This document shows positions 1,979 to 20,788 of a stretch of 56,020 nucleotides of DNA, one piece after another. The DNA lies in IMG/VR virus record IMGVR_UViG_3300013104_000028, positions 1 through 56,020 of that record; one strand, 5' to 3'. Under the pieces are notes generated by a model. The model was given only the letters and a program-made list of their open reading frames with translations. It had not been told where the DNA came from and made no database searches. The stretch's first letter is position 1. Each line of letters starts with the position of its first letter. Source of the stretch: a virus. The position numbers and the translations under genes were made by a program.

Positions 1979-2041
1979 TATTGTACAACACAACAAAGAT
2001 AATATAAAAGCCCCAAAAGGCATATACTTAAAAACTACTAT

Positions 2042-2632
2042 ATGTTACCAGCAAATTATGAAAATGCACACTATGCCGGAATGACGGATAACGGTGTGGA
2101 GTTTTTTGCTAAGCCTGATGAGATGGATGTGAGATGTATGAATATGGGAAAGGTTTATGAGTCATACAGGGAATTTCCTGAATGGATAAAGCAAAAGCTC
2201 ACTGATGACCTTTATAAGACACCCTTGGCAGTTAAAACTTTAAGAAGACACTGGAAGAAACTACCAGTAGTTGAATATCCGAGGCAGCATGCTTATTGCA
2301 AATATGGAGGGTTAGACCCGAATCCTGATATCGATTCGCAAGGTAATATGGGACACTCCGAATTCTTTGACTGTGGAAGAAGAGGCAAGTGCAAGAGTGA
2401 AGGCAAATTATGCTGTGTTATGCAGGTGAAAGCAGGATTCTTAACCAAAATGGAAATTGAAATTCTAAGGTTGGTAATGCTTCCGGATAAAAGAATAGCA
2501 GATAAACTATGTATTTCATCAGCAACAGTATTAACACACTGGCAAAATATAAGAAGAAAAACAGGTTTCAGAAGTAAAATAGAATTAGCGGTGTTCGCAA
2601 CAAAAAAAGGAATGATAAAATGGATTTGGTAG
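2042..2632 (+). CDS. Early regulator with cysteine cluster and LuxR-type HTH
   Basis: 196 aa, first gene of the rightward early operon. Residues 80-127 contain a group of cysteines (CKYGG, DCGRRGKC, LCCV) that could bind a metal. The C-terminal 60 residues read as a GerE/LuxR helix-turn-helix: LTKMEIEILRLVMLPDKRIA, then LCISSATVLTHWQNIRRKTG, ending in a positively charged helix. LuxR-type domains bind DNA as dimers and usually activate. Being first in the operon under direct repressor control, it is a good candidate for the switch to later phage genes. Its operator is unknown; the recurrent elements listed elsewhere in this window are candidates. Confidence 0.75.
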   Translation: MLPANYENAHYAGMTDNGVEFFAKPDEMDVRCMNMGKVYESYREFPEWIKQKLTDDLYKTPLAVKTLRRHWKKLPVVEYPRQHAYCKYGGLDPNPDIDSQGNMGHSEFFDCGRRGKCKSEGKLCCVMQVKAGFLTKMEIEILRLVMLPDKRIADKLCISSATVLTHWQNIRRKTGFRSKIELAVFATKKGMIKWIW

Positions 2633-2862
2633 GGGTAGGGATTAAGATTATTGAGGCGCCAAAAGAAAAATTTACATGGATCGGCCCTCTTGAAAAGCTT
2701 GAAGAAGTAAATGTTCCGATTTACTTCTGGTATAAGGACCGCGGAAAGGTTGCGCCACTTATCAGTAAGGATATGAGGCTTAAGTATCCAGATCGGGAGT
2801 ACGAGACTGAAAAGACAATTATTAAAAAAAAGGAATTACTAAAAGTTTGGAGGAATAAATAA
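2620..2862 (+). CDS. Small early protein, unknown
   Basis: 80 aa; overlaps the end of the LuxR-type gene by 13 bp, and its own stop overlaps the next start (TAATG), so it is translated within the early operon. The sequence is mixed charged/hydrophobic with no membrane segment, cysteine or recognisable motif (YFWYKDRG in the middle, a lysine-rich C-terminus). No function can be assigned. Confidence 0.65.
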   Translation: MDLVGVGIKIIEAPKEKFTWIGPLEKLEEVNVPIYFWYKDRGKVAPLISKDMRLKYPDREYETEKTIIKKKELLKVWRNK

Positions 2863-3182
2863 TGGACGGATTTACAACAATTGCACCCGGGCTGGTCTTA
2901 GTCGATAAAAGCGTGATCATTGAGCTAATTGATCAGGTGAAGGGTTTAAGGGATACAGTGGTTTCAACGGCTGCAGAACTTAAGGATAGCAAAAAGCCAT
3001 ACTTAACTGCTCAGGAATTGATGGAGTTTACAGGATTTGGTAAAACCTGGGTTAACGACAACAAACAAGATATTGGGTTTTCTATTATAGGGGGCTGCCT
3101 GAGATTTAAAAGGAAAGATGTTGAAGATTTTATGAATTCGAATTACTTCAAGGCTAAAAAGCCAAAGTTTAAAAACTACTAA
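2862..3182 (+). CDS. Excisionase-like HTH protein
   Basis: 106 aa. The N-terminal part (1-42) is a probable helix. Residues 43-98 are a winged HTH of the MerR/excisionase class: YLTAQELMEFTGFGKTWVND, then GGCLRFKRKDVEDFMNS, where the RF.RKDVE.F end is typical of the HTH_17 family. Bacteroidota phages and integrative elements use such proteins as excision directionality factors or small regulators. It is encoded in the early rightward operon while the integrase is at the other end on the minus strand, which suits an Xis made only on induction. Start overlaps the previous stop (TAATG). Confidence 0.7.
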   Translation: MDGFTTIAPGLVLVDKSVIIELIDQVKGLRDTVVSTAAELKDSKKPYLTAQELMEFTGFGKTWVNDNKQDIGFSIIGGCLRFKRKDVEDFMNSNYFKAKKPKFKNY

Positions 3183-3200
3183 TACAATCTTAAAGCAAAA

Positions 3201-3223
3201 ACCCCGGATTCGTGGTCCGGGGT
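3201..3223 (+). terminator. Strong hairpin, possible terminator or attenuator
   Basis: ACCCCGGA (3201-3208) pairs perfectly with TCCGGGGT (3216-3223) around a 7-nt loop. No T run follows, so on the plus strand it may be a pause site or mRNA stabiliser. On the minus strand an A-rich flank becomes TTTTT, so it would terminate leftward transcripts. Confidence 0.55.
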
Positions 3224-3245
3224 AAATATCAAGAGTTAGACCCTT

Positions 3246-3259
3246 AACATTTTAAAGCA
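3246..3259 (+). promoter_or_regulatory. Leader motif AACATTTTAAAGCA, copy 1
   Basis: Lies 10 nt before the ATG at 3270. One of six near-identical copies in this prophage, each just upstream of a start codon. Confidence 0.65.
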
Positions 3260-3269
3260 TCGCAAAGCT

Positions 3270-3455
3270 ATGAAAATATTAGCTATTACTAAAACAGTAA
3301 TCCCGTTGGATTACGACCCTACACAACAAGGTTTTAATAACTGGGCTATCAGTATTAGAAATCAAGTGCACATGAATGAGCGCCCATTCGATGTTCACGC
3401 TGTCGTAAATGAAACTAACAAGATTTTAAAATTTCACAAAACCAGAATCGGTTAA
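3270..3455 (+). CDS. Small early protein, unknown
   Basis: 61 aa, preceded by a copy of the AACATTTTAAAGCA leader. The sequence is neutral to basic (VIPLDYDPTQQGFNNWAISI, NERPFDVHAVVNETN) with no recognisable domain, cysteine or membrane segment. The dedicated leader and tidy spacing argue that it is translated. Confidence 0.6.
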   Translation: MKILAITKTVIPLDYDPTQQGFNNWAISIRNQVHMNERPFDVHAVVNETNKILKFHKTRIG

Positions 3456-3473
3456 GTGATTAAAACCAGGCCT

Positions 3474-3593
3474 ATGTCACAAAAGGATAAAGAAGAGTTG
3501 CGCTCAATGGTTGAGGGTATCCTTCAAAAAGTAAAACGCATGCAAGCCAGTTGCATCGAAATAAAACTAGAAATATCACTATTAAATAAATAG
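3474..3593 (+). CDS. Tiny early protein (39 aa)
   Basis: ATG at 3474, stop TAG at 3591. The product (MSQKDKEELRSMVEGILQKV...) is a single amphipathic helix rich in Lys/Glu/Leu with one Cys, typical of short phage early proteins. It fills the gap between two leader-preceded genes. No function can be assigned. Confidence 0.5.
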   Translation: MSQKDKEELRSMVEGILQKVKRMQASCIEIKLEISLLNK

Positions 3594-3605
3594 CACAAGC
3601 CCCTT

Positions 3606-3618
3606 AACATTTATAGCA
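3606..3618 (+). promoter_or_regulatory. Leader motif, copy 2 (variant AACATTTATAGCA)
   Basis: One base shorter than the other copies, placed 2 nt before the ATG at 3621, and preceded by the same CCCTT as copy 1. Confidence 0.55.
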
Positions 3619-3620
3619 AA

Positions 3621-3905
3621 ATGAATCAATTACTATTTGAACCGGAGCTGAATGTGGACTCAATAGAGTATCAAACATCAAATGGAATGATGCGCGAGCC
3701 TGTTTTAAATCTATTGAATTGGATTGAGAAACTGAAGATGAATTTTGATAGTGTCCTAGTCGATAATTCTTCTCCAAATGGAGATGGGAATCCTGAGTTC
3801 GACATATACAAGGAAATGGAGGTAACTGGCATAGATGAGTTTTTTGAAGAGAATTTTATCGAATTAACTACTGTTTATTTCAAAGAATTTTTATCAAAAA
3901 GATAA
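3621..3905 (+). CDS. Acidic early protein, unknown
   Basis: 94 aa, strongly acidic (for example NGDGNPEFDIYKEMEVTGID and a Glu/Phe-rich end), without cysteines or membrane segments. Starts 2 nt after a leader motif and shares its stop with the next start (TAATG). No family recognised. Acidic small early proteins of phages sometimes mimic DNA or bind host nucleases, but nothing here shows that directly. Confidence 0.65.
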   Translation: MNQLLFEPELNVDSIEYQTSNGMMREPVLNLLNWIEKLKMNFDSVLVDNSSPNGDGNPEFDIYKEMEVTGIDEFFEENFIELTTVYFKEFLSKR

Positions 3906-4132
3906 TGGAATTCATTCAAATAGAAAACCAAATTACCCTAATGAAATGCAAGGAATTAGCTATAAACAATCTCTTGACCGGGGCACGGGTGGTGCAAATG
4001 GAATACTTGAAAGCACAATTTCAGAATGCTGGTGTAAATGCAACTGCTTTGGCTGTAATAACAGTCACTGAAGGTCTAGGATTTAGCGACCTAGCGATAG
4101 AAATGAAATCAAAACTATCACATAAAAAATAA
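3905..4132 (+). CDS. Small early protein, unknown
   Basis: 75 aa, linked to both neighbours by TAATG stop/start overlaps, so it is made with the probable recombination protein that follows. Mostly helical by composition (ENQITLMKCKELAINNLLTG and a C-terminal basic tail). No motif recognised. Confidence 0.6.
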   Translation: MEFIQIENQITLMKCKELAINNLLTGARVVQMEYLKAQFQNAGVNATALAVITVTEGLGFSDLAIEMKSKLSHKK

Positions 4133-4944
4133 TGGAAGAAGATCAAATAACAGCCGTGTCAATACAAGGTAATGAAATGGCGATGCTTAGAGAAAAAGCA
4201 TCAATAGATATTCAAGTGTCAACTGCAAAAGCTTACCCAAGAGACATGCAAAAGGCTTTAAATAACTCAATTTTTACTGTCACAATGGATGTCGAAACGG
4301 CTTCAACTTGTACATACTCTGTTCCAAGAGGAGGAAAGGCTATAACAGGGCCTAGTGTACATCTTGCAAAAATCATAATGCAAAACTGGGGCAATATTCG
4401 TGGTGAGACCAAAGTAATTGAAATTGGTCTAAAAGATATTACCAGCCAGTCTGTTGTATGGGACCTTGAAAATAATGCTGCTCTCAAGGTGGAGGTTAAG
4501 CGATCCATAATGACCAAAACAGGAAGGATGAGCGATGATATGATTACTGTCACAGGTAACGCTGCTAATTCAATTGCCCTTCGTAATGCAATCTTTGGAA
4601 TAATTCCCAGGGCTATTGTCGATAAAGTGTATAATGCCTCACAACAGAAAATTATCGGTGATGATCAAAACTTTGCCAAGCGAATTAAAGATGTTTTAGC
4701 AGGATTTAAAAAAGTATATGATAAAGATGCAGCAGAGGTTTTGCCTTTGGTTGGAAAGACTGATGTGGAGCAACTTGTTAAAGCAGATCTTGTTGTTCTC
4801 ATCGGTGTCGCCCAAGCGCTCAAAGATGGAGATGTTACTGCTGAAATGGTATTCAAACCCGCTGTTAAAACTGGCACCGAAAAGAAAGCTGATCTTAAAG
4901 CAAATCAATCTAGTAATGCAACTCAACCCCCACAAATGCCATAA
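4132..4944 (+). CDS. Probable phage recombination protein (single-strand annealing type)
   Basis: 270 aa. The core has the pattern TCTYSVPRGGKAITGPSVHLA (57-77), QNWGNIRGET, a WDLENN segment and GNAANSIALRNAIFGIIPRA (142-161), ending in a low-complexity Lys/Gln/Pro tail. I recall this pattern from a widespread but poorly named phage family encoded next to exonucleases. Its gene overlaps (TAATG) the start of a RecB-like nuclease, the usual pairing of a phage annealing protein with its partner exonuclease. The annealing role is inferred from that pairing; no catalytic motif is expected. The tail after residue 245 may be a disordered SSB-like extension. Confidence 0.55.
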   Translation: MEEDQITAVSIQGNEMAMLREKASIDIQVSTAKAYPRDMQKALNNSIFTVTMDVETASTCTYSVPRGGKAITGPSVHLAKIIMQNWGNIRGETKVIEIGLKDITSQSVVWDLENNAALKVEVKRSIMTKTGRMSDDMITVTGNAANSIALRNAIFGIIPRAIVDKVYNASQQKIIGDDQNFAKRIKDVLAGFKKVYDKDAAEVLPLVGKTDVEQLVKADLVVLIGVAQALKDGDVTAEMVFKPAVKTGTEKKADLKANQSSNATQPPQMP

Positions 4945-7022
4945 TGAGTATTTATAAGTCATATTCTAAAGACGAGATCGATCATCTTTTCTCCAACTAT
5001 CTAGTTAATAGTTGGAGTTACTCGAAGCTGGGGCAATTTTCCAGAAATGAAAAAGCCTTCGAAATGATCCATATATATGGACACCGCTCCAAACAATCAG
5101 CGACAACAGTAGCAGGGCAGGCATATCACTTTGCACTTGATCGCTACTTTAATGCAAAACAACGCGGCGACCAGTTTGATGTCGCTGACTTGGAAATGTT
5201 AGCATTCGAATACATTGAGGAGGTTCAGCCCTACTTATGGAAAATTCAGAAGACAACTCCTTCAATTGAGGACTGTAAACAAAAAGCATATAAAACAGTT
5301 GTAGCCCTGATCCGTAATTTCTTTTCAGAGCTTCACGTATATGAAGAGGAGATTGCTGAAGTTTTAGAGGTTGAAGTATTTTGCGATGAGTTCCTAACAA
5401 TCAATGGCGTAGATATTCCGCTTCCTTGCAAGGCGAAGATTGATTTAAAAGTAAAACTAAAGGATGGAAGGATTGTCATCATTGACCATAAATCAAAAAA
5501 TGCATTCTCGGACGAAGAAGCGCTAAAGCTATCAATCGGTGTACAGGCAATCACTTATGTGAAATGTTCTGAATCGAATGACGGTGAGATTGTCGATGAG
5601 GTATGGTTTATAGAAAATAAGTACTCTCAGAATAAGGATAAATCATCACAACTTAGGCCATTCAAACTGGCTATGACACCTGATGTTAGGAGGCTATACG
5701 AGGCTCTTATATACGAATCTCTTAAAAGGATGCTCGAAGCCGTTAGTGACCCTGATTACGTCTACCTTATCAATGATTCAGATACACTGCAGGATAAGGC
5801 CGAGATATATGATTTCTGGGCAAAAACGATGATTGCTGAGGTGGAAGACTTCAATGTGCATCCAGACAAAAAGGATCTTGTTGCTAAACGCCTCAGAAAG
5901 ATCAGAGATTCTTCTTTAGCCTCCATAAACCCAAAAGTCATAAAACAATTTAAAGAAAACGCATCATCATTTATTCATTACGATTTAAGCAATAAAAACA
6001 TGACCCCTTCTCAAAAAATAGAACACATCCTGCGATCTTTTGGCTTAATTGTCAGCGTTGAGCACATATTCGATGGCTTTTCGAGCAACACATATTTGCT
6101 GAGGGTTTCAGCTGGAGTTACAGTTAATTCAGTTCAAGGCAGGAGACTAGATATCGCGAATGCACTGGATGTATCAAACGTACGAATCTCAAAAGACTTG
6201 GTGATGCATGAAGGAAAAGCCTATCTGTCCATAGAGTTTTCTAAAGCCCGTGAAAAGGACTTAATATTTTGTCCCGGTGATTTGATAGAAAGGAAAATCC
6301 CAATTGGAAAGGACAATTTTGGAAACACTATTATATGGAACTTGAATAACCATTCAACACCCCATGCACTCGTTTGTGGGGGAACCGGAAGCGGTAAGTC
6401 TGTGTCAATCAGATCAACTATTGAATATGCTCTTCAAGGAGCTGCCAGTGAGGTTATCATATTGGACCCGAAATTTGAATTCATCAAATACAAGAACCAC
6501 GCTAAAGTAAAGGTATATAACGATATTCTTGAAATTGAGGATGCTATGGCTGATGCAGTAAAACGGATGCAGGAGTGCGTCAAAAATGGAATGCATTGGG
6601 ATGTACTGATCATTTTTGATGAATTCGCAGACGCGGTAGATCAAGCTCGAAAAGGAAAGCAGTTAATCCAAAAGGAACTGCAGGAGATAGGGACTTATGT
6701 AAATGGATCAGCCAAAATGGGGCTGGTAACCGTTGGTGAACTAAAATCCTTAGAGGAGAATTTGAAGATGATCCTGCAAAAAGGTAGGTCTGTAGGCATG
6801 AGAGTTATGGCCGCAACACAGCGAGCCTCTGTAAAAGTCATCAGTGGAGACGCTAAGGTCAACCTTCCGGTTCAAATATGTTTCAGAGTTCAAAAAGAAG
6901 CCGATAGCAGGGTGGTGTTAGACGAGGCTGGAGCTGAATCTTTGGGAGGTTGTGGAGATGGACTTATCAAGTCTCCGGAATACCGTGATACGGTAAGATT
7001 TCAAGCCTATTACTGCGCATAG
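4944..7022 (+). CDS. RecB-like nuclease fused to FtsK-type DNA translocase
   Basis: 692 aa. Residues 1-300 are a PD-(D/E)XK nuclease of the RecB/Cas4 group: GQAYHFALD (His62), KIDLKV (Asp167), IIDHKSK (Asp181, Lys183) and the following QAITY motif (Gln201, Tyr205). Residues 355-450 match the small alpha/beta domain that precedes the FtsK motor. Residues 451-692 are the motor: Walker A GGTGSGKS (479-486), Walker B VLIIFDE (554-560), ATQRAS, and SRVVLDEAGAESLGGCGDG (655-673), the FtsK/SpoIIIE C-terminal signature. A nuclease with its own double-strand DNA pump could resect or process replicating phage DNA together with the preceding gene product. There is no membrane segment and no FtsK gamma domain. 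The fusion is unusual (see findings). Confidence 0.85.
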   Translation: MSIYKSYSKDEIDHLFSNYLVNSWSYSKLGQFSRNEKAFEMIHIYGHRSKQSATTVAGQAYHFALDRYFNAKQRGDQFDVADLEMLAFEYIEEVQPYLWKIQKTTPSIEDCKQKAYKTVVALIRNFFSELHVYEEEIAEVLEVEVFCDEFLTINGVDIPLPCKAKIDLKVKLKDGRIVIIDHKSKNAFSDEEALKLSIGVQAITYVKCSESNDGEIVDEVWFIENKYSQNKDKSSQLRPFKLAMTPDVRRLYEALIYESLKRMLEAVSDPDYVYLINDSDTLQDKAEIYDFWAKTMIAEVEDFNVHPDKKDLVAKRLRKIRDSSLASINPKVIKQFKENASSFIHYDLSNKNMTPSQKIEHILRSFGLIVSVEHIFDGFSSNTYLLRVSAGVTVNSVQGRRLDIANALDVSNVRISKDLVMHEGKAYLSIEFSKAREKDLIFCPGDLIERKIPIGKDNFGNTIIWNLNNHSTPHALVCGGTGSGKSVSIRSTIEYALQGAASEVIILDPKFEFIKYKNHAKVKVYNDILEIEDAMADAVKRMQECVKNGMHWDVLIIFDEFADAVDQARKGKQLIQKELQEIGTYVNGSAKMGLVTVGELKSLEENLKMILQKGRSVGMRVMAATQRASVKVISGDAKVNLPVQICFRVQKEADSRVVLDEAGAESLGGCGDGLIKSPEYRDTVRFQAYYCA

Positions 7023-7080: not shown

Positions 7081-7839
7081 ATGAATTTAAAATTCACCCG
7101 TCCAATAGCCTTCTTTGACATAGAAGCTACTGGATTAGATACAACAAAAGATAGAATTGTAGAACTTGCTATCTGCAAGCTTCACCCAGACTACACCAGA
7201 GAATCCTTCTCCTGGTTAATAAATCCAGAAATGCCTATCCCGGCAAAATCTTCAGAAATTCATGGGATTTTGGACGGAGATGTAGCTAATGAACCAACAT
7301 TTAAAGAATTAAGCGCTACAATATGGAGCATTTTAAATAACTGTGATTTCGGTGGTTTTAATAGTAATGCATATGATATCCCGATGCTTTATAATGAGTT
7401 TTTACGGGCGAATCTGATCATTGATTATTCAACCATTAAGTTTATTGATGCAGGAAATATATTTAAACGCAAGGAGCAAAGAACTTTGGCTGCGGCAGTT
7501 TTAAAATATTGTGGTTATCCTCTTGAAAATGCGCATAGCGCAGTTTCTGATATTGAAGCTACTGTTGATGTTTTCCTTAATCAGTTAAATGCATATCCTG
7601 ATCTGCCTAATGATGTAGGTGCGCTGGCTTTGTATTGCAATCATGATAAACCAGTTCTTGATCTATCCGGAAAGTTTACAACTGATCAAGACGGTGATAT
7701 CATCTTCAACTTCGGTCAGCACAAAGGCACGAAGGCAATCTATGACTTAGGTTACGTTTCGTGGATGTACAATAAGGATTTTGCGCCTGACACTAAGAGA
7801 ATTTGTGAAAGCCTTTTAGGTATAAATCAAAGTATTTAA
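7081..7839 (+). CDS. DnaQ-type 3'-5' exonuclease with ExoX-like C-terminal domain
   Basis: 252 aa. Residues 8-165 are a DEDDh exonuclease: Asp13 and Glu15 (FFDIEATG), Asp99 (NAYDIPML), His152 and Asp157 (AHSAVSD). The IHGI segment typical of DnaQ/ExoX is at 60-63. The C-terminal part (about 205-250, FNFGQHKGTKAIYDLGYVSW) is the small domain found at the end of exodeoxyribonuclease X and in DUF3820 proteins. It would trim single-stranded 3' ends during phage replication or recombination. All metal-binding residues are present. It follows the nuclease-translocase gene and has its own leader motif. Confidence 0.88.
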   Translation: MNLKFTRPIAFFDIEATGLDTTKDRIVELAICKLHPDYTRESFSWLINPEMPIPAKSSEIHGILDGDVANEPTFKELSATIWSILNNCDFGGFNSNAYDIPMLYNEFLRANLIIDYSTIKFIDAGNIFKRKEQRTLAAAVLKYCGYPLENAHSAVSDIEATVDVFLNQLNAYPDLPNDVGALALYCNHDKPVLDLSGKFTTDQDGDIIFNFGQHKGTKAIYDLGYVSWMYNKDFAPDTKRICESLLGINQSI

Positions 7840-7858
7840 TAGTTCAATTTTTAACCCT

Positions 7859-7901
7859 GGTGGAGCGTAAAAAGCTTTGGATCGGCGTCAGTCGCTCCAC
7901 C
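7859..7901 (+). promoter_or_regulatory. Structured 5' leader hairpin
   Basis: GGTGGAGCG (7859-7867) pairs perfectly with CGCTCCACC (7893-7901) around a 25-nt loop. It stands 2 nt before the leader motif of the next gene. No T run follows, so it is more likely an mRNA stability or translation-control element than a terminator. Confidence 0.55.
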
Positions 7902-7903
7902 TA

Positions 7904-7917
7904 AACATTTTAAAGCA
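7904..7917 (+). promoter_or_regulatory. Leader motif AACATTTTAAAGCA, copy 4
   Basis: Lies 2 nt before the ATG at 7920, directly after the hairpin at 7859-7901. Confidence 0.65.
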
Positions 7918-7919
7918 AC

Positions 7920-9434
7920 ATGTTTAACAAAGATTTTTATCCAACTCCTGCCAACATTATTGAACTAATGATTAATGGTGATGACTTAACCGGAAGAGTG
8001 GTTTTAGAACCTAGTTCAGGTAAAGGAGATATTATAGATATCCTGAATTCTAGGGGGGGCGAAGTTTTGTGCTGCGAATCTGACGAAAATCTTGCTAAAA
8101 TTTCCGCCAGTAAAGCACGATTCCTTAATTCAGATTTCCTGAAAGTACAATCTGATGAGATAAGTCATATTCATGCTATTTATATGAACCCGCCATTTAG
8201 TGCCGACGAAAAGCATATTTTACATGCTTGGAGTATTGCCCCATCTGGATGTCAAATCGTTGCACTGTGCAATCACAACACACTTTCAAACGATTATTCA
8301 AGGTCAAGAAAAGAACTACTTTCTATAATCAAAGATTATGGCAATAGCCAAAATTTAGGCGATGCATTCTCAGATAGCGAGAGACAAACGGGTGTAGATA
8401 TCGGCCTAATAAGATTATACAAACCCGTTTCCAACAGCTCATTTGGTGATTATTTCACCAGCGAAGATGATGACCCCGAAGCAAATCAAAGCGGCATAAT
8501 GAGTTATAATGCTGTCAGGGAAATCGTTCAACGATATGTGAATGCAGTTATGCTATATGATCAGGTGATAGAAAATGCCATAAAAATGAATTCTTTGATC
8601 GGTGAGGTTGCAGGATATAGTAAAGATTTAGTTTTCACCTGCACTCAGGATAAAAGGGAATTAACAAGAATCGAGTTTTCAAAAGAATTGCAGAAAAAAT
8701 CTTGGAACTGGATTTTCAACAAGTTGAACATGCAGAAGTACGCTACACGCGGATTACGGGAGGATATTAACAAGTTCGTTGAACAACAAGTAAAAGTTCC
8801 ATTCACAATGAAGAACATTTATAAGATGCTCGACCTAATTGTTGGTACACAATCTCAGAGAATGGATAAAGCACTATTAGAAGTTTTTGATAGGCTTACA
8901 ATGAGGTATCATGAAAACAGGTATGACATAGAGGGCTGGAAGACGAATAGCCATTATATGGTAAACCAGAAATTCATATTGGATAGCATTTGCTGGCAGG
9001 ACCAGAGGTGGTACAAAGGAGAATCAAAAATACAAGTTGATTATAGACTGGAAATCTTAGACGATCTAATGAAGGCGCTCTGTTACATTACCGGAGACCA
9101 ATACGAGGACAAAATCACCTTGTCACAAGCCATTAAGTACAATTACAAAGTTTCTCTTGACGGAATGGTTATCAGAGCTTATTTGAGTAGAAACGAAGCA
9201 GAAGCAAAAGTACAATATCTATTATCGAAGGGAAAAGAGGCAGTCATTATTCACGAAACTGATCATGTTTACGGTGAATGGTTCGACTGGACATATTTCG
9301 AATGCAAAGCATTTAAAAAAGGAACAATGCATTTCAAATTCAAACAGGAAAAAGTATGGGCATTGTTCAATCAGCACATAGGTAGAATCAAAGGTTTTCC
9401 TCTCCCAGAGAGTGTTTATAAGAAAGCATCATGA
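7920..9434 (+). CDS. DUF4942-type N6-adenine DNA methyltransferase
   Basis: 504 aa. Residues 1-180 are a class I methyltransferase: SAM-binding motif VVLEPSSGKGDI (28-39), acidic strand end CCESDE, and catalytic NPPF (90-93), so motif I precedes motif IV. The rest contains the WKTNSHYMVNQKFILDS and WYKGESKIQVDYRLEILDDL segments that I associate with the DUF4942 domain fused to phage methyltransferases. NPPF indicates N6-adenine methylation. There is no cognate nuclease next to it, so it is an orphan enzyme, perhaps protecting phage DNA from host restriction. Stop and next start overlap (ATGA). Confidence 0.8.
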   Translation: MFNKDFYPTPANIIELMINGDDLTGRVVLEPSSGKGDIIDILNSRGGEVLCCESDENLAKISASKARFLNSDFLKVQSDEISHIHAIYMNPPFSADEKHILHAWSIAPSGCQIVALCNHNTLSNDYSRSRKELLSIIKDYGNSQNLGDAFSDSERQTGVDIGLIRLYKPVSNSSFGDYFTSEDDDPEANQSGIMSYNAVREIVQRYVNAVMLYDQVIENAIKMNSLIGEVAGYSKDLVFTCTQDKRELTRIEFSKELQKKSWNWIFNKLNMQKYATRGLREDINKFVEQQVKVPFTMKNIYKMLDLIVGTQSQRMDKALLEVFDRLTMRYHENRYDIEGWKTNSHYMVNQKFILDSICWQDQRWYKGESKIQVDYRLEILDDLMKALCYITGDQYEDKITLSQAIKYNYKVSLDGMVIRAYLSRNEAEAKVQYLLSKGKEAVIIHETDHVYGEWFDWTYFECKAFKKGTMHFKFKQEKVWALFNQHIGRIKGFPLPESVYKKAS

Positions 9435-10219
9435 TCACTGCGACAAACGAAGATAACCTTTTAATGATGTCGAGGTATCAAGATAAACATTTTGATTTAG
9501 CAATAGTTGATCCAGAGTACGGAATCGGAGAAGCGGGTAAGAACCATAAATCGAGAAATACTTTAGTTAGGCAATCAGGAGGACAGATGAGAAGATGCCC
9601 TTCGAGCCAATATACTCGTAAAGATTGGGATAATAAACCTGCAGGACGTGAGTATTTTATAGAATTAAAACGAGTTTCAGTAGAGCAGGTGATATTTGGT
9701 GCAAACTATTTTGAATTTATTATGCCTGTTTGCAAACCTCCTCGAAGAAATGAGTTTGCTCAGTTCCTAATAGATCACCCGTTTGGTTTTATAATTTGGG
9801 ATAAAGTTAATGGTAACTCGGATTTTAGTGATTGTGAGGTGATCTATACTTCATTCAATTTTAAATCCTTTGTAATACCATACATGTGGGCGGGCATGAT
9901 GCAGGGAGTTAGTATAGCCAGGGGTACTGTAATGCAGGGCAATAAAAGACTTAACGAAAAACGTATTCATCCCACTCAAAAACCAGTTATGCTATACAAA
10001 TGGCTATTGATCCAATGCATTCAGAAATGGATTATGATTTCTCAAAAAGCCATTAAGGTCCTTGATACTAACAGAGGGTCTGGAAGCTTAGATATTGCTT
10101 GTTATGATTTGGGGATTGATTTAACCACCTGTGAATCCGATGCTGAATATTTTGATTTAGCCAACAAGAGGTTGGAACAAAACACAAGGCAGCAATCACT
10201 GTTTAAAAATGTAATATGA
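9431..10219 (+). CDS. DNA methyltransferase, beta-type order, with DPEY in place of DPPY
   Basis: 262 aa. Motif IV, normally (D/N)PPY, reads DPEY (27-30; AIVDPEYGIGEAG). Motif I is near the C-terminus (VLDTNRGSGS, 210-219), followed by the acidic TTCESDAEYFDLANKR helix. The order IV-I is that of beta-type DNA methyltransferases, which act on adenine or N4 of cytosine. HPTQKPVMLY (about 180-190) is the conserved segment before motif I in these enzymes. Glu replacing the second Pro of DPPY is odd and may alter or lower activity. It overlaps the preceding methyltransferase gene, so the two are co-translated; together they may modify phage DNA. Confidence 0.8.
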   Translation: MITATNEDNLLMMSRYQDKHFDLAIVDPEYGIGEAGKNHKSRNTLVRQSGGQMRRCPSSQYTRKDWDNKPAGREYFIELKRVSVEQVIFGANYFEFIMPVCKPPRRNEFAQFLIDHPFGFIIWDKVNGNSDFSDCEVIYTSFNFKSFVIPYMWAGMMQGVSIARGTVMQGNKRLNEKRIHPTQKPVMLYKWLLIQCIQKWIMISQKAIKVLDTNRGSGSLDIACYDLGIDLTTCESDAEYFDLANKRLEQNTRQQSLFKNVI

Positions 10220-11473: not shown

Positions 11474-12377
11474 AGAAATTACAGAAATAATTGTCAATTA
11501 TACAGAGAATAATCAATCATTGATGAGAAACGGCCAGGAGTTAGAAATTCCTGAGCTCCCGTCGGTAAACAATCCATTAACAGTTCCATCGATTAAGCAT
11601 AATTCTGATGATGACATCTTTGCAATAATCCTGATGTCGCTGGCAACTTCTTACACTGACTTAAGCTGGAAACAGCCATCAAAAAAAGATAAGGAATATA
11701 TGGCCAATAAACTTGCGGATAGCATTCCATCTAAATTTCCATCAATCAGACTGCATGAAATTCCAGAAGCATTTGCAAACGGTATACGTGGGAAATATGG
11801 TGAATTTATGGGGCTAGGGGTAGTAAGTTTCGAAAATTTTATTGAAGCTCATCTGGCATCAGAAAAACGAGAACAGTTCGCGAAAGAAGTTTTAATGATA
11901 CCAGAAAGGATAGAGCCAGATATCAATACAAAGTTTACAACAGCCAAAAATAACGCCTTAAAAGCATTCCAAAGTAAGAAAATTGGAAGCGATATTTCAT
12001 TGGTTGCCTTGGTAGTTTACACTTTTTTGGACCGCTTAAAATTGATTCAGTATTCCGCTAAAAGAAAATGGGATTTTGTTGATCTGGCGAAGGAAATTTT
12101 AATCAAAGGATTTACTCATCAGCTTTCTGTAACGATTAACAAACAAGATCGATTCAGGATAAGAAGGGATATCGAGAACGTGAAAGACGGATCAGCTGTT
12201 CAGTTGATTCTAAATACATCCAAGAGAGTGGCACTATACCAATACTTCGACGACCTGGCCTTGTCGGGTATCAACCTTGACGAACTGATAGATAGCAAGC
12301 AGTACTTGTTTAACGAAACCGAACCAATTAATAGTAATACTGAAAATACCGAACGATATGGAAGCGAACAAATTTAG
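11466..12377 (+). CDS. Replication-associated protein, unknown (possible helicase loader)
   Basis: 303 aa, soluble, with no Walker motif or cysteine cluster. The N-terminus (1-45) is low in structure. The middle (about 65-150) is helical, with SWKQPSKKDKEYMANKLAD and LHEIPEAFANGIRGKYGEFMGLG. Similar helical patterns occur in phage proteins encoded beside DnaD-like initiators. It starts inside the initiator gene and ends overlapping the RuvC-like gene by 20 bp, so all three form one operon. A role in primosome assembly is inferred from position. Confidence 0.6.
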   Translation: MSKEITEIIVNYTENNQSLMRNGQELEIPELPSVNNPLTVPSIKHNSDDDIFAIILMSLATSYTDLSWKQPSKKDKEYMANKLADSIPSKFPSIRLHEIPEAFANGIRGKYGEFMGLGVVSFENFIEAHLASEKREQFAKEVLMIPERIEPDINTKFTTAKNNALKAFQSKKIGSDISLVALVVYTFLDRLKLIQYSAKRKWDFVDLAKEILIKGFTHQLSVTINKQDRFRIRRDIENVKDGSAVQLILNTSKRVALYQYFDDLALSGINLDELIDSKQYLFNETEPINSNTENTERYGSEQI

Positions 12378-12849
12378 TGAGAGAGAACAAGGGAGAGGGT
12401 TAGTGCATAGAATTTCATTACCCAAGTTAGCGTATGTTATCGGAATCGATCCTGGTACAAAGACCGGGGTGGCTTTCTATTGTAAGCTTTCCAAAAAACT
12501 GATAATTGTGGCCACTATGAAAATCCATGAAGCATTCGATGCAGTCAGGAAAGTTAATCAATCCTCCAAAGAGCATGATGTTAAAATCTTTGTTCGTATA
12601 GAAGATGCTCGTAAGCGTAAACGCTATGGTGCCAATTCGAATGCAAAAGTTCAGGGAGCCGGAGCGATTAAAATCCAGTGTAAGCAATGGGAGGAGTTTT
12701 TGATCAGTGAAGGAATATCTTACCAGCTGGTCGCACCTCAATCAATCAGGACTAAGGTTGATGCAGTCCAGTTTAAAAAAATTACTGGATGGGAAGGAAG
12801 GACTTCAAATCATGGCAGGGATGCAGGCATGCTGGTTTTCGGCCTTTAA
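12358..12849 (+). CDS. RuvC-like Holliday junction resolvase
   Basis: 163 aa. An RNase H-fold nuclease with VIGIDPGTKTGVAFY (Asp31), VRIEDARK (Glu82) and NHGRDAGML (His152, Asp155), the acidic set of RuvC-family resolvases; the loop with GANSNAKVQGAGAI fits the family. The length is close to RuvC (about 170). It would cut branched intermediates of phage recombination and replication before packaging. The first 24 residues before the beta strand are extra, so a GTG start at 12403 is possible. Last gene of the replication operon. Confidence 0.82.
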   Translation: MEANKFSEREQGRGLVHRISLPKLAYVIGIDPGTKTGVAFYCKLSKKLIIVATMKIHEAFDAVRKVNQSSKEHDVKIFVRIEDARKRKRYGANSNAKVQGAGAIKIQCKQWEEFLISEGISYQLVAPQSIRTKVDAVQFKKITGWEGRTSNHGRDAGMLVFGL

Positions 12850-12926: not shown

Positions 12927-13862
12927 ATGACGGAACAATACACAACAGACCTCGGTGCTTATTTTTTAGGTAGCATAGACGATATTATTGACAATGATAG
13001 ATTAAGCCATTTGGAAGGTAGGATTAAATTAATTTTTACCTCGCCTCCATTTCCTTTAGCAAGGCCAAAAAAATACGGCAATTTGGAAGGTTTAGAATAT
13101 CTTGAATGGATCGGAAAGATTTCAAAATACTTGAAGAAACTTTTGACACCAGATGGCTCCATAGTACTTGAAATTGGTAATTCTTGGGTTAAAGGAGTTC
13201 CTGAAATGTCAACGCTGCCGTTAAAGTCGCTTATTCACTTTCAAGAGGAAGGTGATTATAAACTTTGTCAACAATTTATCTGGAATAATCCTGCAAAACT
13301 GCCTAGTCCAGCACAATGGGTTAATGTGAAAAGAATTAGAGTAAAGGATTCATTTACTAATATTTGGTGGATGGCTAATTCTCATTATCCTGAGGCTAAT
13401 AATAAAAACATTTTAAAAGAATATAGTGTCTCAATGAAGAAGCTATTAAAAGCCCAAAAATATAATTCTGGACCTCGACCATCTGAACATGTTATAGGTG
13501 AAAAGTCATTTCTAACCGATCACTCTGGAGCAATCCCATCTAATGTTTTGTCAATGTCTAACACATCATCAGAAGATGGATATGTAAAGTATTGCAAATC
13601 TATTGGAGTGAAAGCTCATCCAGCACGGATGCCTGCAGACTTAGTTCAGTTCTTCGTGGAATTTTTAACTAAGGAGGGTGATTTAGTTTTAGACCCTTTT
13701 GGTGGAAGCAATACTACCGGGCTTGTCGCTGAAAAATTAAATCGGAGTTGGATTGCAATTGATAGAGAAGTAGACTATATTCGAGGGTCCGAAGGAAGAT
13801 TCCCAAAGGAAATAAACATGCTCTCTAATAATGGCCAAAATATTAATACAGGAAACGCATAG
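12927..13862 (+). CDS. DNA methyltransferase of a restriction-like module (SPPF type)
   Basis: 311 aa. Motif IV is TSPPF (Ser39-Phe42) and motif I near the C-terminus is LDPFGGSNTTG (from Asp256), followed by the SWIAIDRE strand. The order IV then I with SPP(F/Y) is that of beta-type methyltransferases, many of which make N4-methylcytosine. KAHPARMP (about 230) is the usual pre-motif-I segment. It overlaps the following nuclease gene by 32 bp, which itself ends 4 nt before an ATPase gene. This points to a modification subunit for a restriction system. Confidence 0.85.
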   Translation: MTEQYTTDLGAYFLGSIDDIIDNDRLSHLEGRIKLIFTSPPFPLARPKKYGNLEGLEYLEWIGKISKYLKKLLTPDGSIVLEIGNSWVKGVPEMSTLPLKSLIHFQEEGDYKLCQQFIWNNPAKLPSPAQWVNVKRIRVKDSFTNIWWMANSHYPEANNKNILKEYSVSMKKLLKAQKYNSGPRPSEHVIGEKSFLTDHSGAIPSNVLSMSNTSSEDGYVKYCKSIGVKAHPARMPADLVQFFVEFLTKEGDLVLDPFGGSNTTGLVAEKLNRSWIAIDREVDYIRGSEGRFPKEINMLSNNGQNINTGNA

Positions 13863-18731: not shown

Positions 18732-19346
18732 ATGCCAGAACCTCACAAAGCCGCTAAGCAGGGTAAAGAAGCCAGACTGGTTATTGTTGGAGAACTATAT
18801 AAAAAGGGTTACTCCTTTCGTGACATAAGGGAAGAGGTAATGAAGCGTGAGGGTAAAACAACATATTCATTATCAACTGTAAAGAAAGATGTTGATGCGA
18901 TACTTAAAGATTGGCGTAAAACTCGAATCGATGATGTAGATATGGCTATTCAGTTGGAATTGGCGGCTATTGATGATCAGATTCGAGAATTATGGATTGC
19001 TTGGGATCGTTCAAAGACGGATCAGAAGCTCAAATCAAAGAAACAATCAGGCTTAGCAGTTAAGGAAGCCGCTAGTAAAGTCGTTGATACAGATGGAAAG
19101 CTAAAAGATAAAGTGGAGACTTCTGGTATTAAGACTACCTCGATCGAGCAAACTGAAAAGGATGAGATCAATTTCGGTGATCCGCGTTATCAGGACTTGA
19201 TTAATAAGCTTAGAATGGAGCGTAGAAAGTTAATGGGCTTATATGCTCCTGAGAAAAAGGAATTGACTGGTAAAGATGGAAAAGATCTAATCCCATCGCT
19301 TACTGATGACGAGCTAACCAATTTAATAAATGATCTTTCCAAATGA
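18732..19346 (+). CDS. Probable terminase small subunit
   Basis: 204 aa. The N-terminal HTH (14-60) reads VIVGELYKKGYSFRDIREEV, then TYSLSTVKKDVDAILKDWRK. A long helical middle is followed by a lysine-rich region (KSKKQSGLAVKEAASKVVDT) and a C-terminal segment (GLYAPEKKELTGKDGKDLIP) that may contact the large subunit. It is encoded directly upstream of terL with a 4-bp overlap. In this position TerS recognises phage DNA and loads the large subunit. Sequence similarity among small terminases is low, so the call rests on HTH plus position. Confidence 0.7.
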   Translation: MPEPHKAAKQGKEARLVIVGELYKKGYSFRDIREEVMKREGKTTYSLSTVKKDVDAILKDWRKTRIDDVDMAIQLELAAIDDQIRELWIAWDRSKTDQKLKSKKQSGLAVKEAASKVVDTDGKLKDKVETSGIKTTSIEQTEKDEINFGDPRYQDLINKLRMERRKLMGLYAPEKKELTGKDGKDLIPSLTDDELTNLINDLSK

Positions 19347-20788
19347 TAGTTACAAGCACAATATCCAAAAGTGATTCTAAACTGCAGTTGTTAATTCAGG
19401 AAAGGAACATACGTGCTTGCCGATGTCATTTGCTTCCGTTCACAAAGGCTACGTTCACTAGGTTCAATCCAACTTGGTTTCATAAATCCTACTATAGCAA
19501 ATTAAATGACTTTGTTGAAGGTAAGATTAAAAAACTAATGGTGTTTGTTCCACCTCAACACGGTAAGAGTGAAGGATCAACTAGGCGCGCGCCCGCTTAT
19601 ATTCTAGGAAGAAATCCTGACTTAAAAATTGCCATTGTATGCTATAACTCGACAAAAGCCCGTAAGTTCAATAGGGAGGTTCAAAGGATTATTGATGATC
19701 CAGTTTACAAAGAACTGTTTCCTGATACCCGCCTTTCAAATGGATCTGATGGATACACCAGAACCAATGATGAGTTTGAGATTGTTGGGCATAATGGCGG
19801 CTTAAGGTCTGTAGGTGTTGGCGGGCCGCTGACGGGTGAAACCGTAGACATCCTGATCATGGATGATTTGTACAAGGACGCAATGGCAGCCTGGTCTCCA
19901 ACTATCAGGGGGAACGTTCAGGAGTGGTATGATACTGTAGGTGAATCAAGGCTCCATAATGACAGTCAGCAGCTGCTAGTTTTTACTAGGTGGCACCCAG
20001 AGGATCTTGCTGGCAGATTGATTAAAACCGAAGGTCAAGATTGGGAGATAGTTGTTTATCCTGCGATTAAACTCGGTGAACCAAATGATTATGATCCGAG
20101 GCAAGAAGGCGAAGCTCTTTATCCGGAAAAACATAATCTGGAAAAGTTGCAAAAGGTAAGGGATCGCAATCCACATGTATTTGGAAGCCTTTATCAACAA
20201 GACCCACAACCAAAAGAAGGATTGCTTTATTCAACCTTCAAAACTTACACGGAGATTCCGTATTCAGTTAAAAAGATGCGTAAATCTTATACAGATACAG
20301 CTGATCAAGGTAAGGATTACTTGTGCTCGATTGCCTATCACGAAACTGAACTTTACATCTACGTTTTAGATGTGATTTACACGCAGGCTGGAATGGAGAC
20401 TACAGAGCCATTAACTGCACGCCAATTACTTGATCATGATATAGAGTTGGCCAGAGTTGAATCGAATAACGGAGGGCGTGGTTTCGCTCGTAATGTTGAA
20501 GATCAAACGCGGCTGGCGGGAAATTATAAAACAGAAGTTGGTTGGTTTCATCAAGGGGAGAACAAGATTGCAAGGATTACCACTAATTCTAACACTGTAA
20601 CCAATCTGATTATTATGCCTGAAGGTTGGGACACCAGGTGGCCAATATTTTATAACCACGTGACGAGTTACTCATCTAAAGGTGGCAATGAACATGATGA
20701 CGCTCAAGATACTCTCACAGGCATGGTTGAATTCTTTGGTTTAGATAATTTAGAAAGTGAAATAGGCGCGTTAAGCGTATTTGGATAA
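19343..20788 (+). CDS. terL: Terminase large subunit
   Basis: 481 aa. ATPase domain with Walker A-like VPPQHGKSEGST (69-80, Lys75), a RRAPAYILGRNPDLKIAIVC strand and Walker B ILIMDD (170-175) followed by WSPTIRG. The coupling motif TRWHPEDLAG lies at about 214-223. The C-terminal RNase H-type nuclease starts at SYTDTADQGKDYL (Asp) and carries VESNNGGRGFARN plus the closing HDDAQDTLTGMVEFF with catalytic acids. It is a full-length motor that pumps DNA into the prohead and cuts it. Start overlaps the small subunit stop (ATGA). Confidence 0.95.
   Translation: MIVTSTISKSDSKLQLLIQERNIRACRCHLLPFTKATFTRFNPTWFHKSYYSKLNDFVEGKIKKLMVFVPPQHGKSEGSTRRAPAYILGRNPDLKIAIVCYNSTKARKFNREVQRIIDDPVYKELFPDTRLSNGSDGYTRTNDEFEIVGHNGGLRSVGVGGPLTGETVDILIMDDLYKDAMAAWSPTIRGNVQEWYDTVGESRLHNDSQQLLVFTRWHPEDLAGRLIKTEGQDWEIVVYPAIKLGEPNDYDPRQEGEALYPEKHNLEKLQKVRDRNPHVFGSLYQQDPQPKEGLLYSTFKTYTEIPYSVKKMRKSYTDTADQGKDYLCSIAYHETELYIYVLDVIYTQAGMETTEPLTARQLLDHDIELARVESNNGGRGFARNVEDQTRLAGNYKTEVGWFHQGENKIARITTNSNTVTNLIIMPEGWDTRWPIFYNHVTSYSSKGGNEHDDAQDTLTGMVEFFGLDNLESEIGALSVFG

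Follow-up and report, generated by a model that had tools for sequence, protein, structure and literature searches.

A RecB-type nuclease fused to an FtsK-type motor in phage loci with exchanged annealing proteins and a recurrent C-terminal tip

Introduction

In the SynExo pairs of phages, such as lambda Red alpha/beta and RecE/RecT, the gene of a nuclease adjoins that of a single-strand annealing protein (SSAP). The contact between Redalpha and Redbeta is described as running through the C-terminal region of the SSAP, and the mixed pairs RecE/Redbeta and Redalpha/RecT as failing (PMC5052646). Here, we analyse a complete virus record of 56,020 bases (IMG/VR record IMGVR_UViG_3300013104_000028), hereafter the window, in which an SSAP gene is followed by the gene of a RecB-type nuclease fused to an FtsK-type motor. 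The locus is like the SynExo pairs in that a nuclease gene adjoins an SSAP gene, a stand-alone exonuclease occupies the same slot in relatives, and the proposed contact is the SSAP C terminus, as described for Redbeta. It departs from them in having an FtsK motor on the nuclease chain and in combining a single nuclease family with SSAPs of many families.

In AddAB, AdnAB and RecBCD, a RecB-type nuclease is also carried on a DNA motor; these motors are SF1 helicases and load RecA, whereas the fusion described here has a double-stranded DNA (dsDNA) translocase paired with an SSAP. HerA-NurA likewise combines a ring ATPase of the FtsK-HerA superfamily with a nuclease, but the present motor is nearest to FtsK proper, the nuclease is RecB-type, and both form one chain that is phage-borne beside an SSAP. 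A 2026 study of Thermococcus kodakarensis reports that HerA-NurA cuts both strands of dsDNA and doubts that it acts in resection (PMC12977600). FtsK, SpoIIIE and TcpA share the alpha and beta motor domains and the Walker motifs with the fusion, which differs from them in having a nuclease in front and neither a membrane segment nor a gamma domain. Phage FtsK/SpoIIIE-like proteins (phrog_1358; mycobacteriophages, Bacillus phages) resemble the motor, with about 30% identity over residues 356-692, but none of the 216 matching phage records covers 80% of the fusion. In the open-licence PMC papers searched, we recognised no description of this fusion or of the SSAP tip reported below.

Results

Domain structure of the fusion

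At 4944-7022, a sequence-only reading of this DNA had described a 692-residue RecB-like nuclease fused to a complete FtsK-type translocase, and Pfam, PHROG and a structural model all agree with that description. The gene and its parts are the following:

4944..7022, + strand: RecB-type nuclease/FtsK motor fusion, 692 amino acids, ATG start (open reading frame, Pfam, PHROG, model)
4944..5918, + strand: nuclease domain, residues 1-325, with GxxxH 58-62, D167, D181xK183 and QxxxY 201-205 (Pfam, alignment, superposition)
5961..5993, + strand: interdomain linker of low confidence, residues 340-350 (AlphaFold2 model)
5997..6236, + strand: FtsK alpha domain, residues 352-431 (Pfam)
6294..7019, + strand: FtsK beta (RecA-like) motor, residues 451-692 (Pfam, PHROG, superposition)
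6378..6401, + strand: Walker A GGTGSGKS, residues 479-486 (sequence, conservation)
6618..6623, + strand: Walker B Asp559-Glu560 (conservation)

All three Pfam calls exceed their curated cut-offs: PDDEXK_1 (PF12705) over residues 23-228 with 34.9 bits (cut-off 22), FtsK_alpha (PF17854) over residues 352-431 with 30.1 bits (22.9), and FtsK_SpoIIIE (PF01580) over residues 451-546 with 35.8 bits (24). PHROG 1358 (FtsK/SpoIIIE-like) spans residues 356-690 (E 3.5e-43). The complete RecB-type motif set (GxxxH, D, DxK, QxxxY) is present in the nuclease, and alpha and beta domains of the FtsK/SpoIIIE type are present in the motor together with Walker A, Walker B and the SRVVLDEAGAESLGG signature, as had been read from the sequence. 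No hydrophobic or transmembrane segment was found in the fusion (highest 19-residue hydropathy mean 1.05), the N terminus being occupied by the nuclease, and there is no C-terminal gamma winged-helix domain, since the protein stops at residue 692, where the motor ends. NurA is not the family matched by the nuclease, which falls to PF12705, and the best match of the motor is FtsK, all in a single chain.

An AlphaFold2 model of the fusion, obtained from an alignment of 37 sequences, has a mean predicted local distance difference test score (pLDDT) of 88 and a predicted template modelling score (pTM) of 0.52, with residues 340-350 as its single low-confidence linker; therefore, nuclease and motor are each well predicted, but not their placement relative to one another. 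The motor (residues 353-692) superposes on 6t8o_D, the motor of FtsK bound to DNA, with Z 32.3 and a root-mean-square deviation of 2.4 over 303 aligned residues, and less well on TcpA (Z 27) and HerA (Z about 16-20). The nuclease (residues 21-298) superposes on the putative exonuclease 3l0a (Z 16.5), and the nuclease domain of AdnA (9np6) aligns to residues 11-295 (Z 16.2).

Conservation and spread

A scan of IMG/VR gave 40 loci with 50-70% identity, nearly all across the full length of the fusion. Counting that of the window, 38 of 41 fusion proteins are longer than 660 residues; the three short ones lie on a frameshifted contig (L029) or are truncated by contig ends (L036, L037). The hosts are almost all Bacteroidota, and the 36 loci found in a genome scan carry this label except for L157 (Puniceicoccaceae, 41% identity), L131 and L148. 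In the last two, the fusion lies on contigs of 4.9 and 6.6 kb from metagenome-assembled genomes labelled Sedimentibacter and Ruminococcus, which may be misbinned Bacteroidota phage DNA.

When the open reading frames (ORFs) of 164 loci, collected via the fusion or its SSAPs, were searched for the same domain pair, 87 matched both profiles, none matched the nuclease alone, and three matched the motor alone, of which two stem from copies of the frameshifted contig and the third lies at a contig end. Independent genes for the two halves, which the sequence-only reading had named as a sign of an assembly error, thus do not occur in these relatives. Nor has the nuclease core been lost: Asp167, Asp181 and Lys183, singled out in that reading, are invariant in 77 distinct fusions, as are Gly58, His62, Gln201, Lys485 and Glu560, and Tyr205 and Asp559 are each kept in 76 of the 77. 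Outside this set, the more distant L157 has, at 1985-4896, a phrog_3657-like SSAP that ends KLP together with a fusion that has a GTG start and, judged by eye, Asp in place of the metal-site His62. Against 395 Bacteroidota genomes, matches of the nuclease profile were limited to the seed genome and, weakly, to two frames of 916 residues, and the nuclease domain alone matched nothing in the phage collection. Among the ten plasmid matches listed, only the FtsK side was matched, and none covered 80% of the fusion. An assembly or gene-calling artefact was rejected, as the fusion lies on many independent contigs, isolate genomes among them. The domain fusion is real and conserved.

Exchange of annealing proteins in the upstream slot

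The sequence-only reading had suspected a coupled annealing protein gene, and the slot upstream of the fusion does hold SSAPs, of several families. The one in the window is:

4132..4944, + strand: partner SSAP, 270 amino acids, phrog_3657 family, predicted Rad52-superfamily fold (phrog_3657 E 8e-52, structure comparison)

Its gene overlaps that of the fusion by one base (TAATG). In a structural comparison, the first 14 matches listed for its model were all RAD52-superfamily annealers, with superpositions on RAD52 (Z 8.4), Mgm101 (7.0), phage Sak (6.8) and Redbeta (5.5), and Foldseek gave nothing at E <= 1e-3. Some mycobacteriophage homologues of this SSAP are annotated as RecT-like.

Of 103 fusion loci (duplicate contigs included), 98 have an upstream ORF in search range; four others have no upstream DNA, and L030 lacks an ORF of SSAP size in the 300 bases upstream. 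The 84 distinct upstream proteins form 12 sequence clusters, namely ten SSAP-slot clusters, between which sequence relation was undetectable at the threshold used, and two single inserted genes (L020, L033). Ten slot representatives were scanned with hidden Markov models besides the SSAP of the window. They include one with RecT (PF03837, 3.6e-42), one with ERF (PF04404, 2e-18), one with Rad52 (PF04098, 2.6e-8), two Bet/RecT-like proteins, one RecT-like phrog_561 protein and one Sak4-like protein (phrog_124, 5.6e-8); three of the ten are without a useful Pfam match. The upstream proteins of L024 and L139 have no PHROG match, and those of L010 and L012 match only an uncharacterised PHROG. Thus, the families exchanged in the slot adjacent to the fusion are RecT, Bet-like, Erf, Rad52, Sak4 and phrog_3657.

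The exchange can be followed in single pairs of loci. L002 and L013 have fusions that are 80% identical and homologous DNA on both flanks, with unrelated SSAP genes between. The SSAPs of L142 (4813-5742; L002-like core) and L025 (6986-7975; phrog_3657 core) represent a core swap over a common C-terminal module, the last 77 residues being 70% identical and the cores without sequence relation. The pair L161 and L035 repeats this pattern and also has homologous DNA upstream of the core. In L020, a gene that resembles HNH/homing endonucleases by eye (7477-8004) lies between the fusion and an SSAP that still ends Met-Pro.

In many relatives of the RecT and Sak4 SSAPs that lack the fusion, the next gene encodes a stand-alone protein of about 220-270 residues. 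All four of those scanned beside RecT are phrog_5715 exonucleases (E 1.4e-41 to 6.6e-84). All three scanned beside Sak4 belong to phrog_4763, which has no function in PHROGs, and two of these three have weaker exonuclease matches (phrog_149; YqaJ PF09588 below cut-off in L182). In L211, a fusion-free Sak4 locus, the next gene encodes a single-stranded DNA-binding protein (SSB). Because fusion-free relatives of these SSAPs have a stand-alone exonuclease at this position, the fusion takes the place of the exonuclease in a phage SynExo pair; an exonuclease gene, recognised by domain rather than by activity, adjoins the SSAP gene in these loci as well.

A C-terminal tip that follows the fusion

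Two features of the SSAP tail in the window recur in other loci:

4936..4941, + strand: C-terminal tip Met-Pro, proposed docking tag (tip counts, within-family contrast)
4879..4908, + strand: tail helix EKKADLKANQ, a motif common to several other SSAP clusters (motif comparison)

The tip [Leu/Met]-Pro-COOH ([LM]P) ends 64 of the 84 distinct upstream proteins, which belong to different SSAP families. In the first 41 loci, it ends 29 of 39 SSAPs, compared with 2 of the 682 other genes that encode 80 residues or more. By cluster, it was found in 15/24 phrog_3657, 14/17 Sak4, 10/11 phrog_561-like, 5/8 RecT, 7/7 Erf, 5/6 L002-like, 3/3 Bet-like, 3/3 Rad52, 1/2 L010-like and 1/1 L024 proteins, and in neither of the two inserted genes.

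We then compared members of the same SSAP family with and without the fusion in five families, counting distinct complete proteins and scoring the fusion as present if it started within 400 bases downstream; 2 + 6 proteins with too little downstream DNA were left out. Since the fusion-linked loci overlap the 84 upstream proteins, the two counts are not independent. The tip was present in 14/17 phrog_3657 proteins with the fusion versus 0/54 without, in 13/14 versus 0/60 for Sak4, 4/5 versus 8/67 for RecT, 4/6 versus 0/66 for L002-like, and 1/1 versus 0/61 for phrog_561-like proteins, where a single fusion-linked virus locus enters and the other tip-bearing members are genome loci without matched control. 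Together, it ends 36/43 proteins with the fusion and 8/308 without. The control scan for Erf yielded three loci only, all with the fusion, leaving this family without a within-family contrast.

The EKKxxLKxK motif is present in phrog_3657, L002-like, Bet-like, RecT, phrog_561-like and L010-like SSAPs; as a universal part of the tail, it was rejected for Sak4 and most Erf proteins. When the profile of phrog_3657 was compared with those of two further SSAP clusters, the tail only was aligned, at a probability of about 1%, which proves nothing alone.

As a separate observation, Phe after acidic residues (EEF, ENF, EGF, NNF) is a frequent C-terminal end of fusion-free Sak4-like SSAPs (L203, L204, L210-L220, L226, L229). 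Such ends resemble the tail of SSB and are perhaps another partner-specific tip.

Genomic context

The window looks like a temperate tailed phage, with genes for a repressor, integrase, terminase, portal, major head protein, tape measure and endolysin. Three further genes bear on the fusion:

19343..20788, + strand: terminase large subunit (phrog_38, E 2.4e-92)
7081..7839, + strand: DnaQ-like 3'-5' exonuclease, next gene after the fusion (PF00929 7.3e-20, phrog_192)
12358..12849, + strand: Holliday junction resolvase-like protein (phrog_1770 1.7e-22)

The window has a separate terminase; therefore, the fusion is not the packaging ATPase of this phage. The DnaQ-like exonuclease adjoins the fusion only in the close relatives L002 and L013 among the 40 virus loci, and the Holliday junction resolvase-like protein probably belongs to the same recombination module as the fusion. 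Methyltransferase-like genes also lie near the recombination genes, at 7920-9434 (with DUF4942), 9431-10219 and 12927-13862, the latter two recognised by eye.

Discussion

From these results, a hypothesis regarding the mechanism may be proposed, in which the fusion most likely acts as an ATP-driven end-resection enzyme; its ATPase and nuclease activities are predicted from sequence. A ring of FtsK-type motors, a hexamer by homology, would pump in duplex DNA starting at a broken or replicated end, and the RecB-type nuclease at the N terminus of the motor chain would cut the passing DNA at the entry or exit of the ring, leaving single-stranded DNA. The neighbouring SSAP may be recruited to this machine by its short C-terminal tail ending in [Leu/Met]-Pro, load onto the emerging strand and anneal it to the complementary one. 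Phages could have exchanged RecT, Bet-like, Erf, Rad52, Sak4 and other cores while keeping the same nuclease-motor because the tail, rather than the SSAP fold, would make the contact. We consider it probable that the fusion supplies the exonuclease of a two-component SynExo system of this kind, with pump and nuclease resecting and a tail-docked SSAP annealing. The narrower proposal that one motor-nuclease takes SSAPs of ten clusters through a single portable docking tag, consisting of the EKKxxLK helix where present and Leu/Met-Pro-COOH, seems to us evenly balanced between true and false.

Several observations weigh against this hypothesis. Twenty of the 84 upstream proteins lack the exact [LM]P end: two are the inserted non-SSAP genes, most of the other misses end LL, LM, LA, LK or LY, and L040 ends LPS, while in L021 and L151 the end seems to be broken or miscalled. 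A fusion-free RecT clade of eight distinct proteins ends VEVLP; it comprises L091, L093-L095, L097, L100, L102, L116 and L117, of which L091 adjoins a phrog_5715 exonuclease, and is either a counter-example or chance. Fusion-linked Sak4s belong mostly to one clade, and their tree needs three changes of the fusion label, at least two of them forced; L198, a Sak4 with the tip KLP, sits within a fusion-free clade, and more than one change of the label is therefore probable even within this family. The EKK..LK helix is missing from Sak4 and most Erf proteins, and Sak4s with and without the fusion do not separate by it (P 0.24). Across families, similarity of the tail follows that of the fusion poorly (rho 0.15, with 38 of 1000 shuffles as high); inheritance of the tail with the fusion as a fixed unit is clear in one case, and in general the comparison speaks for it weakly. 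The Pro codon of the tip is CCA in 51 of 64 cases, compared with 269 of the 941 Pro codons within SSAP bodies. Sak4 is RecA-like, and the cores of RecT, Bet, Rad52 and perhaps Erf may be remotely homologous, so that 'unrelated' is a safe word only for Sak4 versus the rest. Finally, HerA-NurA, which by analogy is the nearest studied mechanical counterpart, cuts both strands in one recent study (PMC12977600).

Such activity would fit a dsDNA shredder: the fusion would destroy host, competing or unprotected DNA by degrading both of its strands, and the SSAP would be a separate recombination gene of the same operon. RecB-type nucleases are also able to cut both strands. However, the SSAP adjoins the fusion in nearly all loci though SSAP families change, exonucleases occupy the same slot in relatives, and the SSAP tip tracks the fusion, which makes a shredder quite unlikely. 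The tail might instead bind a third protein, such as a replication protein or an SSB of host or phage, and merely travel along with a fusion that still resects. The tails of SSBs close with Pro-Phe after acidic residues, and many fusion-free Sak4s end in a comparable way. The C-terminal domain of Redbeta may also contact a host factor (PMC5052646). As the tip depends on the adjacent fusion gene and not on the family in five families, we regard a third-protein target as unlikely, though deserving attention.

A different explanation takes the tip for a nucleotide signal of translational coupling with the fusion gene rather than a docking peptide. The stop of the SSAP overlaps the start of the fusion as ATGA or GTGA in 48 of 82 SSAPs, and the CCA excess is partly forced by the ATGA overlaps. 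Yet among 95 other genes with an ATGA overlap, a final Pro occurs in six and the [LM]P end in none, whereas 22 of the 34 SSAPs without ATGA/GTGA overlap still have the tip, these non-overlapping ends being encoded with Met, with five of the six codons for Leu and with each of the four for Pro. Moreover, the tip is kept in L020 and L033 despite the gene between SSAP and fusion, and SSAPs that overlap a stand-alone exonuclease gene are mostly without it. Coupling as the sole cause of the tip is thus largely rejected and very unlikely, with a real codon skew remaining. Lastly, phrog_2666, labelled terminase large subunit, matches part of the motor (E 1.6e-11), as would suit a DNA packaging or segregation motor of the FtsK/terminase type with an accessory nuclease. 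The probability of such a role is close to nil, and it was rejected on account of the phage's own terminase: a true terminase and portal are present, the fusion has no gamma domain or hydrophobic segment and lies among recombination genes, and, unlike in a large terminase, its nuclease is N-terminal and RecB-type.

Returning to end resection by the fusion with a tail-docked SSAP, the initial observation is confirmed and its interpretation largely holds. A role in phage recombination is supported by the SSAP slot and by the replacement of an exonuclease in that slot, and resection itself is suggested by the same context. The proposed likeness to HerA-NurA stands as an analogy, and the resection role of that system is doubted in PMC12977600; the SynExo slot and the SSAP tail argue for resection better than this likeness does. 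The system is best seen as a SynExo variant whose nuclease is fused to a motor, together with a strong statistical link of different SSAP families to one C-terminal tip, a link that is unreported as far as our searches of open-licence PMC papers reach. The main surprise is that one nuclease family occurs with many SSAP families and a common tip, contrary to RecE/RecT and Redalpha/Redbeta, whose partners are strictly paired.

If the hypothesis is correct, end resection for annealing-type recombination can run on an FtsK-type pump and not only on a helicase or a passive exonuclease, and these phages would practise plug-and-play recombination, in which SSAP folds are swapped while the resection engine stays. 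It would also provide a simple, testable rule for matching an annealing protein to a nuclease. The matching of nuclease and SSAP limits genome engineering outside E. coli, and if two residues allow different SSAPs to work with a common nuclease, this tip could be transplanted, which would be useful for tools in Bacteroidota.

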